In this document: in pieces, positions 46,761 to 52,876 of the stretch | Layout of the letters: each line of letters opens with the position of its first letter | How positions within the stretch are numbered: position 1 is the first letter of the stretch | Assembly (NCBI GenBank): GCA_003164785.1 | Contig: PLUE01000016.1 | Coordinates: 124,001-188,000, forward strand | Length of the DNA stretch: 64,000 nucleotides | Source: Gammaproteobacteria bacterium | GTDB taxonomy: Bacteria > Pseudomonadota > Gammaproteobacteria > Steroidobacterales > Steroidobacteraceae | Reading direction: 5' to 3' | Position numbers and translations under genes: made by a program | The notes under the pieces: model-generated | Databases searched by the model: none | Told to the model about the DNA's origin: nothing | The model's input: only the letters and a program-made list of their open reading frames with translations

Positions 46761-48326
46761 TTACGTGACCCGAACCTCGAGCAGCATCGGCACGTCGGCC
46801 GAGAATATCTCGCGCAGCGCCGCGTCGAGGTCTTCGCAGCGCTCGACCCGCATGCTCCTGACGCCCTGCCCCGTGGCCAGCGCACAGAAATCGAGATGCG
46901 GAAGTTTGACGCCGGGCAGCGCGTCGATGGCGAAATGGCGGCCGAATTCCTCGAGCGCGCGATAGCTCGAATTATTGATGACGATGAAGGCGACGGGTAA
47001 TCCGAGTTCCGCGGCGCTCCACAGGCCTTGGATGGAATACATGGCCGAGCCGTCGCCGAGCAAGCCGATGACTTTACGGCCCGGACGCGCCAAGGCGACG
47101 CCGACCGCCGCGGGCAATCCGTGGCCCAAGCCGCCGCTCGCGCAGGTGTGAAAGGTTTCGCGTTCGAGGATGGGCAGATGATCGTGCATGGGTCCGCGGC
47201 TGCTCGGTGCTTCCTCGACGATGATGCTGTCGGCGGGCCGTAGCGCCGCGATCTGCTGCAACAGATAGCAGTCGGTCAGGCGATCGGCCGGCACCTGCGC
47301 CGCGCGCGCAGGCAGAGCCGGCGCCGCACGCGTCTCCCTCGGTTGGGAGGCGAGCAATGCGGCCACGCCGAGCTTCAAATTCGTGACGATGGATGTGCCG
47401 ACGGGGGCCCAGGCCGCGGCGGCCGGGTCGTCGGTGAGCTGCACCAGCGTCGAGCCGGCGGGGATGTGCGGTCCGTGTCCCTCGACGTGATACGTGAACA
47501 CCGGGGCGCCCAGCACCAGGATGAAGTCGGCGCCCTCGAGCAGTTTGACGATCGCCGTGCGGTTCGCCGGCAGGAAGCCGGCGAACAGCGGGTGCCGTTC
47601 GGGAAAGCTGTTGCGCGCCGACATGGGACTGACCCAAACGGCAGCTTGATGTCGTTCGGCGAGGGCGATGGTTTCGTCCCACGCATCGTCTCGTGCGACG
47701 GATGCGCCGACCACGATCACCGGTTTGCGGGCCGCGCCGAGCGCGGCGCCGGCGCGCCGGAGAAGCTCGGGATCGCCGGCCAGGGTTCGGCTCGCGATGC
47801 GGGCCGCCACCGGCAGGCAAAGGCGGTCCCAATCGTCCACCGGGATCGACACCAGGGTGGGACCCCGCGGCGGCTGCATCGCCACGTAGTACGCGCGCGC
47901 CAGGGCGGCAGGGACATCCTCGGCCCGCGCCGGCTCGACGCTCCATTTGATGTAGGGTTTGGGCAACTGCGCGGCCTGCTCGGAATACAAGAACGGCTCG
48001 AACGGCAGGATGGAGCGCGCCTGTTGGCCGGCGGTGATTACGAGCGGTGTCTGGTTCTTGAAAGCGGTGAAAATGCTGCCGAGCGCATGGCCGACGCCCA
48101 CCGCAGAATGCAGGTTGATGAGCGCGGCATCGTTGCGTGCTTGCGCGAAACCGTCGGCCATGGCGACGACCACCGATTCCTGCAATCCCAGCACGTAGCG
48201 GAAATCTTCCGGAAACTCGCGAAACATCGGCAACTCCGTGGAACCAGGGTTGCCGAATATCGTGGTCAGGCCGAACTCCCGCAGCAATGCGTGGACCGCC
48301 TCGCGAACCGGCATCTCGCCGCTCAC
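46761..48326 (-). CDS. mdlC: Benzoylformate decarboxylase-like ThDP enzyme
   Basis: A 521-residue thiamine-diphosphate enzyme closely following Pseudomonas benzoylformate decarboxylase. FGNPGSTELPMFREFPEDFR near 24 (active-site Ser), the ThDP Glu in LQESVVVAMADGFAQA near 47, catalytic His in INLHSAVGVGHALG near 70, and another conserved His in VFTYHVEGHGPHI near 278. ThDP motif LLGDGSAMYSIQGLW near 428. Would decarboxylate an aromatic 2-oxo acid to an aldehyde. GTG start at 48326 overlaps the reductase stop. Confidence 0.82.
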   Translation of the reverse strand: MSGEMPVREAVHALLREFGLTTIFGNPGSTELPMFREFPEDFRYVLGLQESVVVAMADGFAQARNDAALINLHSAVGVGHALGSIFTAFKNQTPLVITAGQQARSILPFEPFLYSEQAAQLPKPYIKWSVEPARAEDVPAALARAYYVAMQPPRGPTLVSIPVDDWDRLCLPVAARIASRTLAGDPELLRRAGAALGAARKPVIVVGASVARDDAWDETIALAERHQAAVWVSPMSARNSFPERHPLFAGFLPANRTAIVKLLEGADFILVLGAPVFTYHVEGHGPHIPAGSTLVQLTDDPAAAAWAPVGTSIVTNLKLGVAALLASQPRETRAAPALPARAAQVPADRLTDCYLLQQIAALRPADSIIVEEAPSSRGPMHDHLPILERETFHTCASGGLGHGLPAAVGVALARPGRKVIGLLGDGSAMYSIQGLWSAAELGLPVAFIVINNSSYRALEEFGRHFAIDALPGVKLPHLDFCALATGQGVRSMRVERCEDLDAALREIFSADVPMLLEVRVT

Positions 48327-49339
48327 AGCCGGATCACGATCTTGCCGAAATGGGAGGCGCTCTCCATATGCCGGAAGGCGGCCGGTGCGTCGTCGAAGCC
48401 GAATTCCCGATCGACGATGGGCTCGAGTCGCTGTGTCGCGATGGCGGCGTTCATGCGCTCGAACGTGCCGCGCGAGCCGACGAACACCCCGTGCAGGCTC
48501 GCTTGCTTGCCGAGCAACCCATACGGGCTGCCTGCCGCGCCCACGCCGGTGATGACACCGATCATGGTCACCTTGCCGCCGACCGCGACGGCACCGATGG
48601 ATCGGCTAAGCGTATCGGCACCCCCGACGTCCAGAACGTGATCTGCTCCTTGGCCGTCGGTGAGTTGCAGGACCTCGCGATCCCAATCCGGCGTGAGGCG
48701 GTAATTGACGCCGGCGAAGGCGCCGAATGAACGCGCCCGTTCCAATTTCGTGTTGCTCGATGAGGTGACGATCACGCGGGCGCCCGCCATGTGGGCGAAT
48801 TGCAACGCGAACATGGACACGCCGCCCGTGCCGAGCAGCAGCACGGTCTGGCCCGGCGCGATGCCGCCGATGTCGACCAAGGAACGCCATGCGGTGACCG
48901 CCGCGCACGGCAGCGTCGCGGCTTGCGCCCATGACAGATGTTCGGGGACCGCGACGGCATCGCGTTCATCGAACAGGGCGAATTCGGCCAGCACGCCGTC
49001 GGTGGGCGGCGCCCCCAGGGCGACCAATGGCTGCCGCGGCGGCGCGCCGTCGAGCCATCCGCGAAAGAACGTGCCGCACACCCGTGCACCGACCTTGAAA
49101 CGGGTGACCGAGTCACCCACCGCGACGACTTCGCCCGCGCCGTCGGATATCGGGATGATATTGGTCTTCCCGGGGCCGCCCATGTAGTGGCCGCGCGCGA
49201 TCAGCAGATCTCTGAAATTGAGGGAGGCCGCATGCACGCGGACCAGGATTTCGTTCGATGACGGGGCCGGGTCCGGACGCTCGCAGCGACGCAGGCCGTC
49301 GAGTGAGCTGCTGCCGGCGACGATTTCATATGCGCGCAT
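48323..49339 (-). CDS. Zinc-independent MDR NAD(P)-dependent oxidoreductase
   Basis: A 338-residue medium-chain reductase of the quinone-oxidoreductase/ADH type without the structural zinc Cys set. N-terminal GroES-like domain with SLNFRDLLIARGHYM near 39; Rossmann loop VLLLGTGGVSMFALQFA near 167; DGQGADHVLDVGG near 230. GAGGAAGGA precedes the ATG. First gene of the two-gene operon with the decarboxylase; its promoter faces the LigF-like gene. Substrate unknown. Confidence 0.85.
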   Translation of the reverse strand: MRAYEIVAGSSSLDGLRRCERPDPAPSSNEILVRVHAASLNFRDLLIARGHYMGGPGKTNIIPISDGAGEVVAVGDSVTRFKVGARVCGTFFRGWLDGAPPRQPLVALGAPPTDGVLAEFALFDERDAVAVPEHLSWAQAATLPCAAVTAWRSLVDIGGIAPGQTVLLLGTGGVSMFALQFAHMAGARVIVTSSSNTKLERARSFGAFAGVNYRLTPDWDREVLQLTDGQGADHVLDVGGADTLSRSIGAVAVGGKVTMIGVITGVGAAGSPYGLLGKQASLHGVFVGSRGTFERMNAAIATQRLEPIVDREFGFDDAPAAFRHMESASHFGKIVIRL

Positions 49340-49390
49340 TGTCCTTCCTCACAGATTAATGTTTCATTTGAACCGAAGAGTGCTCGTCGC

Positions 49391-49420
49391 GATCGACTGT
49401 AACCGAATCCGCAGTCGATC
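49391..49420. promoter_or_regulatory. Dyad operator candidate 1 (9-bp arms)
   Basis: Perfect inverted repeat GATCGACTG/CAGTCGATC with a 12-nt spacer in the divergent region between the MDR reductase (minus) and the LigF-like gene (plus), 52 nt upstream of the reductase ATG. The symmetry suits a dimeric regulator. No regulator gene is adjacent. Confidence 0.6.
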
Positions 49421-49447
49421 CGCAGGGAAGCGGTCGATTTTTTTCCG

Positions 49448-49470
49448 CAACGCAGGCGCGGGCTGCGTTG
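49448..49470. promoter_or_regulatory. Dyad operator candidate 2 (8-bp arms)
   Basis: Perfect inverted repeat CAACGCAG/CTGCGTTG with a 7-nt spacer, just upstream of the TATAAAA hexamer at 49474-49480. It overlies the expected -35 box, which is poor, so an activator could be needed there. The LigF-like ATG is at 49539. Confidence 0.6.
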
Positions 49471-49538
49471 TCCTATAAAATGGCGAATCAAGGCGGTGCG
49501 TCGCCAACCTCGAGTCCCCTCACCTCACGAGATGTCCC

Positions 49539-50300
49539 ATGCTAAAGCTGTATCACGCTGAACCGGTCGCGAACTCCCTGAAATCCCTGATCCCGTTGCA
49601 CGAGAAGGGTCTGGAGTTCGAAAGCATCTACGTGGACCTGCATAAGTTCGAGCAGCATCAGCCGTGGTTCGTTGCGCTGAATCCGGAAGGTCAGGTTCCT
49701 GTCCTGGATCATGATGGCGTGATCATTACGCATACGACGGTCATCAACGAATACCTCGACGACGCGTTTCCCGATTCTCCGCCGCTGCGTCCCGCCGACG
49801 CGGTCGGCAAGGCGCGCATGCGTTATTGGAACAAGTTCGTCGACGAGCATGTGATGAATTATGTTTCCATGTGGGGCTGGCACCGGATGGTCGGCGTCAT
49901 CGCCCGCAGCGTCGACAGCGGCGAATTCGAGAAGCTGCTCGAGCGCATCCCCCTGCATGAGCAGCGCGAGAAATGGCGGACGGCACGCTCCGGCTTCAGT
50001 GAAGCGGACCTCGCGAACGCCACGCGAAAAATCGAAGTGGCCGCGGCCAAGGTGGAGAAGCAACTGGGCGAATTCCCGTGGATCGCGGGCGATACGTTCA
50101 GCCTTGCCGACGCGAATTTCTTCAGCCATTGCGGAATGATGCTCGAACGCATGTTTCCCGCGATCGGCAACCAGCAGTCGACTCCCCGGCTTCTCGACTG
50201 GGTTGCGCGGATGCGCGCCCGCCCCGGTGTGGCCAAGGCGCTTGCGGGCCCGGACAAGACCAATCCAGCGTTGCGCACGTTCACGGGCCACGTTCACTAA
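49539..50300 (+). CDS. LigF-like glutathione S-transferase (beta-etherase candidate)
   Basis: A 253-residue GST. N-terminal thioredoxin fold: LKLYHAEPVANSLKSLIPLH (the N-S-L-K block of LigF), EKGLEFESIYVDLHKFEQHQ near 22, NPEGQVPVLDHDG near 50 and VINEYLDDAFPDSPPLRPAD near 67, then the helical domain with MRYWNKFVDEHVM near 96. This follows the Sphingobium LigF pattern, a glutathione-dependent enzyme that splits beta-aryl ethers after oxidation of the alpha-carbinol. First gene of a three-gene operon with GMC and SDR enzymes. Substrate to be tested; other GST roles are possible. Confidence 0.8.
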   Translation: MLKLYHAEPVANSLKSLIPLHEKGLEFESIYVDLHKFEQHQPWFVALNPEGQVPVLDHDGVIITHTTVINEYLDDAFPDSPPLRPADAVGKARMRYWNKFVDEHVMNYVSMWGWHRMVGVIARSVDSGEFEKLLERIPLHEQREKWRTARSGFSEADLANATRKIEVAAAKVEKQLGEFPWIAGDTFSLADANFFSHCGMMLERMFPAIGNQQSTPRLLDWVARMRARPGVAKALAGPDKTNPALRTFTGHVH

Positions 50301-50327
50301 AGACGGGTTTCAAGAAGGAGTCGCTCG

Positions 50328-51962
50328 GTGGCCAATGCGTCGATCAAGAAATTTGATTACGTCATCGTCGGTGCGGGTTCCGCGGGATGCGTTCTCGCCA
50401 ATCGCCTGACGCAGGAGGCGAATACGGTGCTCCTGCTCGAAGCAGGGGGGCGCGCGACCGGGCTTTTCAAAGACATGCCGATGGCATTTCCGAAATACGT
50501 ACTGCGGCGGGATCTGAATTGGAATTTCGTGAGCGAGCCGGAGCCCCATTGCAACGGCAGGCGGATCGACATCCCTCGCGGCAAGGGACTCGGCGGTTCG
50601 TCGATGATCAACGGCATGGTCTATGCGCGCGGTCACCGCAGGGACTACGATCAATGGGCGGAGCAGGGGATGGCCGGATGGGGCTACGCCGACGTGCTGC
50701 CGTATTTCCGCAAGTCCGAGAAGAGCTGGCTGGGCGACGGCCCGTACCATGGGGACTCCGGCGAACTGCATGTCGTGGTCCCCGAGACCAACATGCTGTA
50801 TGACGAGATTCGCGCCGCCACCATTGCCGCCGGCTATCCGGCGACGCAGGACTATCACGGCGAGGAAACGGAAGGATTTCAGCGCAGCGAGATGACCATC
50901 GTCGGCGGCCGGCGCGCGAACAACGCGCGCATTTTCTTGAAGCCGGCGATGGGCCGCGGCAATCTGACGGTCGAAACGAGAGCGCTCGCCAGCCGCATCC
51001 GTATCGAGGCAGGGCGCGCGGTGGGCGTGGACTATTTGCAGGGTGGCCAAGCCTTCACGGCCATGGCCAACCGTGAAGTCATCCTCGCCGGCGGGGTGTA
51101 TGGATCGCCGCAGTTGCTCATGCTGTCCGGCGTCGGCCCCGCAGATCATCTTCGTACCCAGGGCATCAAGCCGCTCCTCGATTTACCGGGAGTCGGCAAG
51201 AATCTCGTCGAACATCCCTTCCTGTTCATAGGGTGGAACCTGCGCCACGGCGCGTTTCGCAGCGAGTTGCGCGTCGATCGCGCGACGACGTGGGTCATGC
51301 AGTGGGGTCTGCGAGGCAAGGGCTTGTTCGCCACCAACGGCGCTGCCGGCAATTTGTTCATTCGGACGGATCCGCGCCTGGACCGGCCCGACATGCAATA
51401 CACCTGCATGTCGGGTGAGATCAGTGCGCGCGAGCTATGGTTCCCGTTCTTCGGCAAGAAGCCGGCACACAGTCTCGGCGTCGGCATTTCGATGATCAAG
51501 CAGGACAGCCGGGGAGAGGTCACGCTGCGCTCCCCTGATCCCCAGGTTGCGCCCCGCATCTTGTTCAATCTGTTCAAGGAGCGATCCGATATGGAGCGCG
51601 CCATTCGCGGTTTGAAGGCCATCCGCGACATCTATCATCGTGAGCCGTTGCGCGATTTGATCACCAGCGAAATCGTGCCCGGCGAGGCCGTGGCCTCGGA
51701 CGCCGATCTCGAGAAGTTCATCCGCGCGACCGGCGCGATCACGCAGCACGCGGTGGGCACCTGCAAGATGGGGATCGACACGGATCCGCACGCCGTGGTC
51801 GACGGGTCCTTGAGGGTGCGCGGTCTGGAGGGGCTGCGTGTCATCGATGCGTCGATCATGCCGGACGTGCCCGGGGGCAATACGAATGCTCCCGCGATCA
51901 TGATCGCGGAGAAAGGCGCCGACATCATCCGCGGGCGCAGCTTGCCCCGCGCAACGGTCTGA
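50328..51962 (+). CDS. GMC-family FAD oxidoreductase (HpvZ-like role possible)
   Basis: A 544-residue flavin oxidoreductase. FAD motif DYVIVGAGSAGCVLANRLTQ near 10, GMC signature RGKGLGGSSMINGMVYARG near 84, second signature AGGVYGSPQLLMLSGVGP near 250, and catalytic His-Asn region HAVGTCKMG near 470 with NTNAPAIMIAEKGAD near 515. No signal peptide. In Sphingobium, the GMC enzyme HpvZ oxidises the alcohol that LigF releases; position next to the LigF-like gene makes the same role plausible here. An alcohol/choline dehydrogenase role is the alternative. Confidence 0.88.
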   Translation: MANASIKKFDYVIVGAGSAGCVLANRLTQEANTVLLLEAGGRATGLFKDMPMAFPKYVLRRDLNWNFVSEPEPHCNGRRIDIPRGKGLGGSSMINGMVYARGHRRDYDQWAEQGMAGWGYADVLPYFRKSEKSWLGDGPYHGDSGELHVVVPETNMLYDEIRAATIAAGYPATQDYHGEETEGFQRSEMTIVGGRRANNARIFLKPAMGRGNLTVETRALASRIRIEAGRAVGVDYLQGGQAFTAMANREVILAGGVYGSPQLLMLSGVGPADHLRTQGIKPLLDLPGVGKNLVEHPFLFIGWNLRHGAFRSELRVDRATTWVMQWGLRGKGLFATNGAAGNLFIRTDPRLDRPDMQYTCMSGEISARELWFPFFGKKPAHSLGVGISMIKQDSRGEVTLRSPDPQVAPRILFNLFKERSDMERAIRGLKAIRDIYHREPLRDLITSEIVPGEAVASDADLEKFIRATGAITQHAVGTCKMGIDTDPHAVVDGSLRVRGLEGLRVIDASIMPDVPGGNTNAPAIMIAEKGADIIRGRSLPRATV

Positions 51963-51988
51963 ATCATCAATCCAAGGGCTGGAGCGCA

Positions 51989-52876
51989 ATGAAGAATCTC
52001 AAAGGCAAGGTCGCGTTCGTCACGGGCGGTAGCAGCGGCATCGGACTGGGCATCGTCAAGGTGCTCGCCGCGGAAGGCATGAAGGTGGCGTTCAGCTACC
52101 GCCGCCAGGACCACTTGGATGAGACCATGGCCTATTTCCGTGACAGGCCCGACCAGCAGGTGCATCCGGTCAAGGTCGACGTGACGGATCGCCCGGGTCT
52201 GGCGGCTGCCAAGCTCGAGATCGAGGGCGCCTTGGGTCCGGTGCAGGTGCTGGTCAACAATGCGGGGGTCGGCATTCAGGGTCCCATCGAGCAGGCCAGC
52301 TTCAGCGATTGGGATTGGATCATGAGCGTGAATGTGGGCGGTGTGGTCAATGGCGTGGTCACGTTTCTGCCCGGAATGATCGCGAGTGGGAAGGAGGCCC
52401 ACATCGTCAACGTGTCCTCCATGGGTGGCATCGCGGCATTGGGTTCGGCGGGTTTGTACACGACGACGAAATTCGCCGTGGTGGGTCTGTCGGAGGCTCT
52501 GCGGACGGACCTGATCGGCCGCAACGTCGGCGTTTCGGTCTACTGCCCCGGTACGGTCAAGTCCAACATCGGCGAGGGCGGCAAGATGCGCCACGAACAA
52601 TACAAGGATACGGGCTACACGCCGCGCGCAGCGCCGGCGCCGGAGGAGGTGCACTTCATGAACCTGGCCATGGACGCCGTGGAGGCGGGCGGCCATGTCT
52701 TGAGAGGCATACAGGAGAATCAACTCTTCATCATCAGCCACCCCGAGTTCCGGGATGTGCTGCGCACACGTCATGCGAAGATCGAGGCCTCGATCAGCCG
52801 CGAGCCGATCAATGAGGAACGGGCGGAATCGGTCCGTTTCATCCTGTCGAACGAGATTTACACCCGCGACGCGTGA
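51989..52876 (+). CDS. LigD/LigL-like C-alpha dehydrogenase (SDR)
   Basis: A 295-residue SDR. NAD loop VAFVTGGSSGIGLGIVKVLA near 8, NNAGVGIQGPIEQ near 92, catalytic Ser and Tyr-x3-Lys (NVSSMGGIAALGSAGLYTTTK) near 147-165. The stretch DWDWIMSVNVGGVVNGVVTF near 107 and GVSVYCPGTVKSNIGEGG near 182 follow the Sphingobium LigD/LigL pattern, enzymes that oxidise the alpha-hydroxyl of beta-aryl ethers and so prepare them for LigF-type cleavage. Follows the GMC gene by 26 nt. Confidence 0.82.
   Translation: MKNLKGKVAFVTGGSSGIGLGIVKVLAAEGMKVAFSYRRQDHLDETMAYFRDRPDQQVHPVKVDVTDRPGLAAAKLEIEGALGPVQVLVNNAGVGIQGPIEQASFSDWDWIMSVNVGGVVNGVVTFLPGMIASGKEAHIVNVSSMGGIAALGSAGLYTTTKFAVVGLSEALRTDLIGRNVGVSVYCPGTVKSNIGEGGKMRHEQYKDTGYTPRAAPAPEEVHFMNLAMDAVEAGGHVLRGIQENQLFIISHPEFRDVLRTRHAKIEASISREPINEERAESVRFILSNEIYTRDA

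Follow-up and report, generated by a model that had tools for sequence, protein, structure and literature searches.

The β-O-4 (β-aryl-ether) linkage is the most frequent bond in lignin, and the glutathione-dependent route that breaks it has been worked out in sphingomonads. In Novosphingobium aromaticivorans, Saro_2865 encodes NaLigF2, a published β(S)-etherase, and is numbered near Saro_2872/2873, which encode the heterodimeric β-etherase BaeAB (PMC6369299). The same gene is also listed as desD, beside desC, among the genes of syringate breakdown (PMC12997858, a 2026 review, in its Table 1); DesC is Saro_2864 (PMC8091115). In LigF of strain SYK-6, Glu65-Ser66 bind the γ-glutamyl group of glutathione (PMC4777856). 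The Cα-dehydrogenases LigO, LigL and LigD have solved structures (4ya6, 4yae and 4y98, respectively; PMC4858972), and their preference for NADH is attributed to an aspartate at the end of β2 (Asp36 in LigL, Asp37 in LigD, Asp38 in LigO; Pereira et al., PMC4858972). HpvY, of the GMC family, is Saro_RS19130 of N. aromaticivorans, its function being that given in PMC11837543. Here we compare with these systems a three-gene locus from a genome of the Steroidobacteraceae, a family of Gammaproteobacteria, in which genes for a glutathione transferase (GST), a GMC flavoprotein and a short-chain dehydrogenase/reductase (SDR) follow one another on the plus strand (see the table below). The analysed stretch of 64,000 nucleotides, positions 124001-188000 of contig C34, is referred to as the window.

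On the basis of sequence comparisons, and with a probability that we put at roughly 0.55, the locus appears to be an operon encoding a LigF2-type GST, a GMC flavoprotein and an SDR of NADP type, forming one module of a lignin-aromatics stretch of ~57 kb. The region is read in this way because candidates for further steps lie downstream on the same contig and because compact clusters are found in the family. The gene arrangement given in the preliminary description holds throughout: the coordinates are correct, the spacing is tight (27 nt between the GST and GMC genes, 26 nt between the GMC and SDR genes, with AAGGAG directly 5' of the GTG start of the GMC gene), and the family-level names agree with Pfam (GST_N/GST_C, GMC_oxred_N and adh_short). 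Most likely, the three genes are a single transcription unit that starts in the 199 bp separating them from the divergently oriented gene of a zinc-type oxidoreductase; a scan of this gap for sigma-70-like promoters gave 0 sites, compared with 0.9 in shuffles.

The glutathione transferase

Compared with all solved chains, the window GST is closest to LigF (4xt0; E 2.2e-57, 197 bits), and the next chain, a plant-type GST, follows with a gap of 125 bits (72 bits, E 4.5e-19). Every match to an NCBIfam profile is below its cut-off. The LigF-like character proposed in the preliminary description, and its expectation that the protein would group with LigF homologues, are both borne out by phylogeny. 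In a tree of 95 rows, in which BaeA, BaeB and four YfcG-like rows are the only other GSTs, the protein falls within a clade of 26 rows from Novosphingobium and Steroidobacteraceae (SH-aLRT support 99), and this clade joins, with support 82, the LigF1 clade to which SYK-6 LigF belongs. All rows but SYK-6 LigF were picked from 222 non-redundant rows, sequences under 190 aa or 75 bits having been dropped beforehand. All trees reported here are quick searches with SH-aLRT support, and their rows are not a random sample but were collected for their similarity or neighbourhood. Long-branch warnings were raised for the GST and SDR trees, none of them on window rows.

We infer that the 26-row clade is LigF2 because the neighbours of its Novosphingobium members match the arrangement of Saro_2864, Saro_2865 and Saro_2872/2873; the comparison covered three such loci, in which DesC and BaeAB-like genes lie nearby. 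At these loci the LigF2 gene adjoins an α/β hydrolase gene, and a BaeA/BaeB-like pair lies several kb (~8 kb) away; the window GST has no DesC neighbour, its partners are the GMC and SDR genes, and the corresponding pair in its own genome is 45 kb distant. The window protein is 71–76% identical to the three Novosphingobium proteins and 46% identical to SYK-6 LigF, with which it shares most residues of the glutathione site (N12, S13, Q39, H40, Q52, V53, Q142 and W146), including the Asn and Ser at the thiol. It differs from LigF in having H65-T66 in place of Glu65-Ser66, as do the three Novosphingobium proteins. Position 65 is His or Gln in all 26 LigF2 rows, and Glu in SYK-6 LigF, in all 14 LigF1 rows and in all 16 BaeA rows.

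The GMC and SDR partners

The best solved relatives of the SDR are LigO (236 bits), 3ioy (205), LigL (191) and LigD (177). Its identity to LigO (46%) exceeds that between LigO and LigD (42%), it is 36% identical to both LigD and LigL, and the catalytic tetrad N-S-Y-K is kept. The NAD-selecting aspartate of the Cα-dehydrogenases, in contrast, is replaced by Tyr followed by Arg (SYRRQ versus ADIRQ in LigO), and its eight clade mates have Tyr (seven) or Trp (one) at the same position. Together these nine proteins form a clade with support 100, separate from LigD, LigO and LigL, in a tree of 105 rows (of 107, two fragments having been dropped; simpler LG+G4 model). The replaced residue and the separate clade speak against an NAD-type LigD/LigL enzyme, which the preliminary description had taken to oxidise the α-carbinol and expected to group with these proteins. 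Since Tyr-Arg takes the place of the aspartate, the SDR is probably NADPH-type; a reductive role such as that of LdpB/LdpC (PMC12997858) is a guess by analogy. A second tandem of Cα-dehydrogenase-like SDRs, with an NADP-type GYR motif, occurs on contig C53 of the same genome (150548-152586; locus L198).

The GMC protein had been described as an HpvZ-type alcohol oxidase; our comparison was made with HpvY, not HpvZ, using the sequence from plasmid pNL2. HpvY is 54% identical to a GMC protein on contig C15 of the same genome and 43% identical to the window GMC. A tree of 23 rows places HpvY with two proteins of C15 (support 97) and the window GMC with those of L044, G240 and the same-genus genome G009 (support 100), so that the window GMC is not taken as the HpvY orthologue and better relatives of HpvY exist on C15, among 17 GMC matches in the genome. 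A GMC gene adjoins the SDR gene in four of the nine SDR clade members, namely the window, L044, G009 and G240; the others (L065 and L201-L204) have no such GMC in the stretch examined. In L044, the GMC-SDR pair is ~6 kb from a LigF2 that is 83% identical to the window GST.

Further candidate pathway genes in the genome and the family

The preliminary description placed a β-aryl-ether route within the three genes. Candidates for most of its steps are indeed present in the genome, but the likely Cα-dehydrogenases, β(R)-etherase and glutathione-removing GST are encoded beyond the window, further along the contig, in a region ~33-56 kb downstream of the operon. Five LigF/BaeA/BaeB-like GSTs are encoded in the genome: LigF2 at 173.5 kb of C34 and two tandem pairs, one on C34 and one on C15. 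The C34 pair resembles BaeAB in its overlapping genes, in having Asn at the thiol in A only, and in falling within the BaeA-like and BaeB-like clades (support 99 and 96); its A protein is 65% identical to the BaeA-like protein of S. xenophagum, whereas B is 30% identical to the BaeB-like protein. The C15 pair (184153-185695; L037 9154-10696), likewise overlapping, is a second and divergent one. LigM is well above its NCBIfam cut-off (812 versus 580 bits) and matches PDB 5tl4. The region also encodes a LigW-like protein that matches the 5-carboxyvanillate decarboxylase 4icm (E 5.9e-112), MFS and aldehyde dehydrogenase proteins and, scoring under its cut-off, a FeaR-like regulator; eight LigB-type dioxygenase matches are found in the genome. 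The YfcG-like GST scores 185 and 175 bits against NCBIfam cut-offs of 325 and 332, and unnamed GSTs are its closer relatives (~325 bits, compared with 169 for YfcG and 138 for 5uun). YfcG and YghU are Nu-class GSTs.

With gene identities, clades, residues and co-location established as above, we infer the following steps. The NAD-dependent SDRs encoded downstream would oxidise the α-alcohol of β-O-4 dimers; the glutathione thiolate, held by the window GST, would attack the β-carbon of the β(S) ketone and release the phenol, the BaeA/BaeB-like heterodimer would cleave the β(R) ketone likewise, and the YfcG-like GST may remove the glutathione. The HpvY-like GMC proteins of C15, together with aldehyde dehydrogenases, would oxidise the freed side chain, and LigM would demethylate the acid. 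As a pair specific to this lineage, the GMC and SDR of the window could act on related phenylpropanoids, oxidising their side-chain alcohols and ketones or, with NADPH, reducing them.

Table 1. Features of the locus and of the downstream region. Plain ranges are window positions; ranges marked C34 are positions on the window contig.
Feature	Position	Strand	Remarks
Zinc-type quinone-oxidoreductase-like dehydrogenase, divergent neighbour	48323..49339	-	
Divergent intergenic region, expected site of promoters	49340..49538	.	199 bp
LigF2/DesD-class glutathione transferase	49539..50300	+	253 aa; N12+S13 at glutathione thiol, H65-T66 in γ-glutamyl site
GMC-family choline-dehydrogenase-like flavoprotein, outside HpvY clade	50328..51962	+	544 aa; GTG start
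SDR, distant relative of LigO/LigD/LigL	51989..52876	+	295 aa; NADP-type cofactor motif; catalytic N-S-Y-K kept
YfcG-like GST	C34:207193-207867		
Two Cα-dehydrogenase-like SDRs	C34:208039-209852		NAD-type; NAD-selecting Asp kept
BaeA/BaeB-like pair	C34:218007-219552		Genes overlap by 8 nt; Asn at thiol in A, none in B
LigM	C34:229297-230685		

Matches to the window GST at E ≤ 1e-15 occur in 35 of 217 Steroidobacteraceae genomes (13 of 25 genera) and in 60 of 149 genomes of the genus of Novosphingobium mathurense, where 46 of the 149 have a match of nearly full length, at 63-77% identity. A class-wide draw gave matches at E ≤ 1e-40 in 2 of 369 genomes, one of them the genome studied here. In these three surveys the scoring covered a part of the first-look candidates in each genome, and the Novosphingobium and family counts were made by hand from match tables. 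A 38-41% match lies 7.1-8.6 kb from LigF2 in 18 of the 46 Novosphingobium genomes (it is BaeA-like in the three loci fetched), a spacing that parallels the numbering of Saro_2865 and Saro_2872/2873. Ten of the 217 family genomes (G011, G217, G222, G223, G250, G257, G269, G295, G310 and G355) have a BaeA/BaeB-like pair and a LigF-like GST no more than 10 kb apart. The fetched stretches of these clusters contain a YfcG-like GST in eight cases, two LigD/L/O-like SDRs in eight and both in seven; G250 and G257 have LigF1 in place of LigF2. The order in G222 is BaeA, BaeB, YfcG-like GST, amidohydrolase, LigF2, oxidoreductase and LigM, followed by two SDRs; the amidohydrolase that adjoins LigF2 in relatives matches, among solved structures, only an uncharacterised one. 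Two further genomes of the family (G023 and G326, genus g2) have up to 12 LigF/BaeA/BaeB-like GST matches each.

Contamination of the assembly is listed as 6.45%. Located 5 kb upstream of the GST gene, a MotB-like gene (named by reading of its sequence) has counterparts of 62-83% identity in 11 of 18 same-genus genomes searched, so that the contig is taken as native to the genus and sphingomonad contamination as its source is rejected. A same-genus genome has a LigF-like fragment with a stop ~7 kb from its MotB-like gene, possibly a remnant at the same site (L020, G018:C291:14259-14522). A relative of the zinc-type dehydrogenase (46-50% identical) adjoins LigF2, or lies within ~1.2 kb of it, in L052/L190, L182, L183, L186 and L188. 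At 46761-48326 on the minus strand, 1.2 kb from the GST, there is a gene that matches the NCBIfam equivalog for benzoylformate decarboxylase with 782 bits (cut-off 493) and whose product may act on aryl-oxoacids. The segment 55984-62861 holds a TIM-barrel isomerase-like gene, an MFS gene, PDH-like E1 α and β genes and a second, atypical GMC gene; parts of this module lie a few kb from a LigF-like GST in L064 (same genus) and L091.

Alternative readings and significance

Several observations weigh against a LigF2-type etherase operon set in a lignin-aromatics region. The γ-glutamyl-binding Glu65 of LigF is absent throughout the LigF2 clade, and Saro_2865 is annotated as DesD as well. In the genome studied here LigF2 is not clustered with the BaeAB-like pair, whose B member, at 30%, is below the 50% identity threshold used by Kontur et al. 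(PMC6369299); the GMC-SDR adjacency is limited to four of nine clade members; and the predicted glutathione-lyase role of the YfcG-like GST would be the weakest link, because this protein is below both cut-offs and nearer to unnamed GSTs.

The DesD annotation, which the preliminary description did not consider, extends to the clade as a whole. The GST might thus be functionally a DesD, acting on CHMOD (the ring-cleavage product of 3-O-methylgallate) or its hydrolysis product, with etherase activity as a side reaction and the GMC and SDR handling other monomers, an alternative that we consider doubtful but worth weighing. DesC adjoins LigF2 in all three Novosphingobium loci fetched, Saro_2865 was deleted together with Saro_2864 in a PDC-accumulating strain (PMC8091115), the His/Gln65 signature of the clade is common to the three Novosphingobium proteins, and LigM is present on the contig. 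However, a DesC match above 100 bits occurs at none of 26 other LigF2 loci (some genomes being represented twice and some stretches being short), and the genome studied here offers at best a match of 40% over 120 aa. As an unrelated esterase does the DesC step in Pseudomonas NGC7 (PMC12314914), and could do so here, the missing DesC is not conclusive. In seven of the ten family clusters, LigF2 accompanies the BaeA/BaeB-like pair, with no other LigF-type protein among the matches listed for that genome (at most 12 scored), and the DesD reaction itself is called predicted (PMC12314914). We lean, without certainty, towards a β-etherase; since the LigF2 clade has its own glutathione-site signature, the choice between etherase and DesD is directly testable.

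A self-contained operon of Cα-dehydrogenase, β-etherase and HPV oxidase, as the preliminary description had it, agrees with the family-level matches of all three genes and with the closeness of the SDR to LigO. It is nonetheless improbable in view of the cofactor residue replaced in the SDR and its eight clade mates, the separation of the SDR from LigD/L/O and of the GMC from HpvY in the trees, and the better candidates elsewhere in the genome. Marginally less probable again would be a general detoxification or xenobiotic-conjugation GST next to two housekeeping oxidoreductases by chance. All three families are large, as the GMC matches in this genome illustrate, and LigF-like GSTs at 27-34% identity occur on plasmids of various soil bacteria, but the bit-score lead of LigF over the next GST structure, the membership in the LigF2 clade, the GMC-SDR adjacency in three other genomes and the surrounding genes argue against mere chance.

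LigF-type enzymes have a precedent in the Gammaproteobacteria: one such sequence, from Voss et al. 2020, was used in PMC8312274, and in Klebsiella β-etherase activity has been proposed from general GSTs (PMC7755216). For Steroidobacter and Steroidobacteraceae, searches of the open-licence literature on etherases and aryl ethers brought up no account of this pathway; work on the family that touches on aryl ethers describes an expressed laccase. Among the genomes labelled in an experiment with 13C-lignin, one belongs to the Steroidobacteraceae; the main text of that study makes no mention of etherases or glutathione (PMC9296663). As far as these searches go, the Steroidobacteraceae clusters, the LigF2-GMC-SDR operon, whose gene order the preliminary description did not know from a described operon, and the glutathione-site signature of the clade are new.

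Tentatively, the gene content suggests that the Steroidobacteraceae may be a second, gammaproteobacterial home of a complete β-O-4 pathway, often in a compact cluster (two Cα-dehydrogenases, BaeAB, LigF1 or LigF2, a YfcG/Nu-type GST and LigM). In the lineage of the window, LigF2 may have been relocated to form a new operon together with the genes of a GMC protein and of an NADPH-type SDR, which would add an undescribed side-chain step, for example stereoinversion or aryl ketone reduction. Beside the sphingomonads, a gammaproteobacterial family with compact clusters would be a natural second system.

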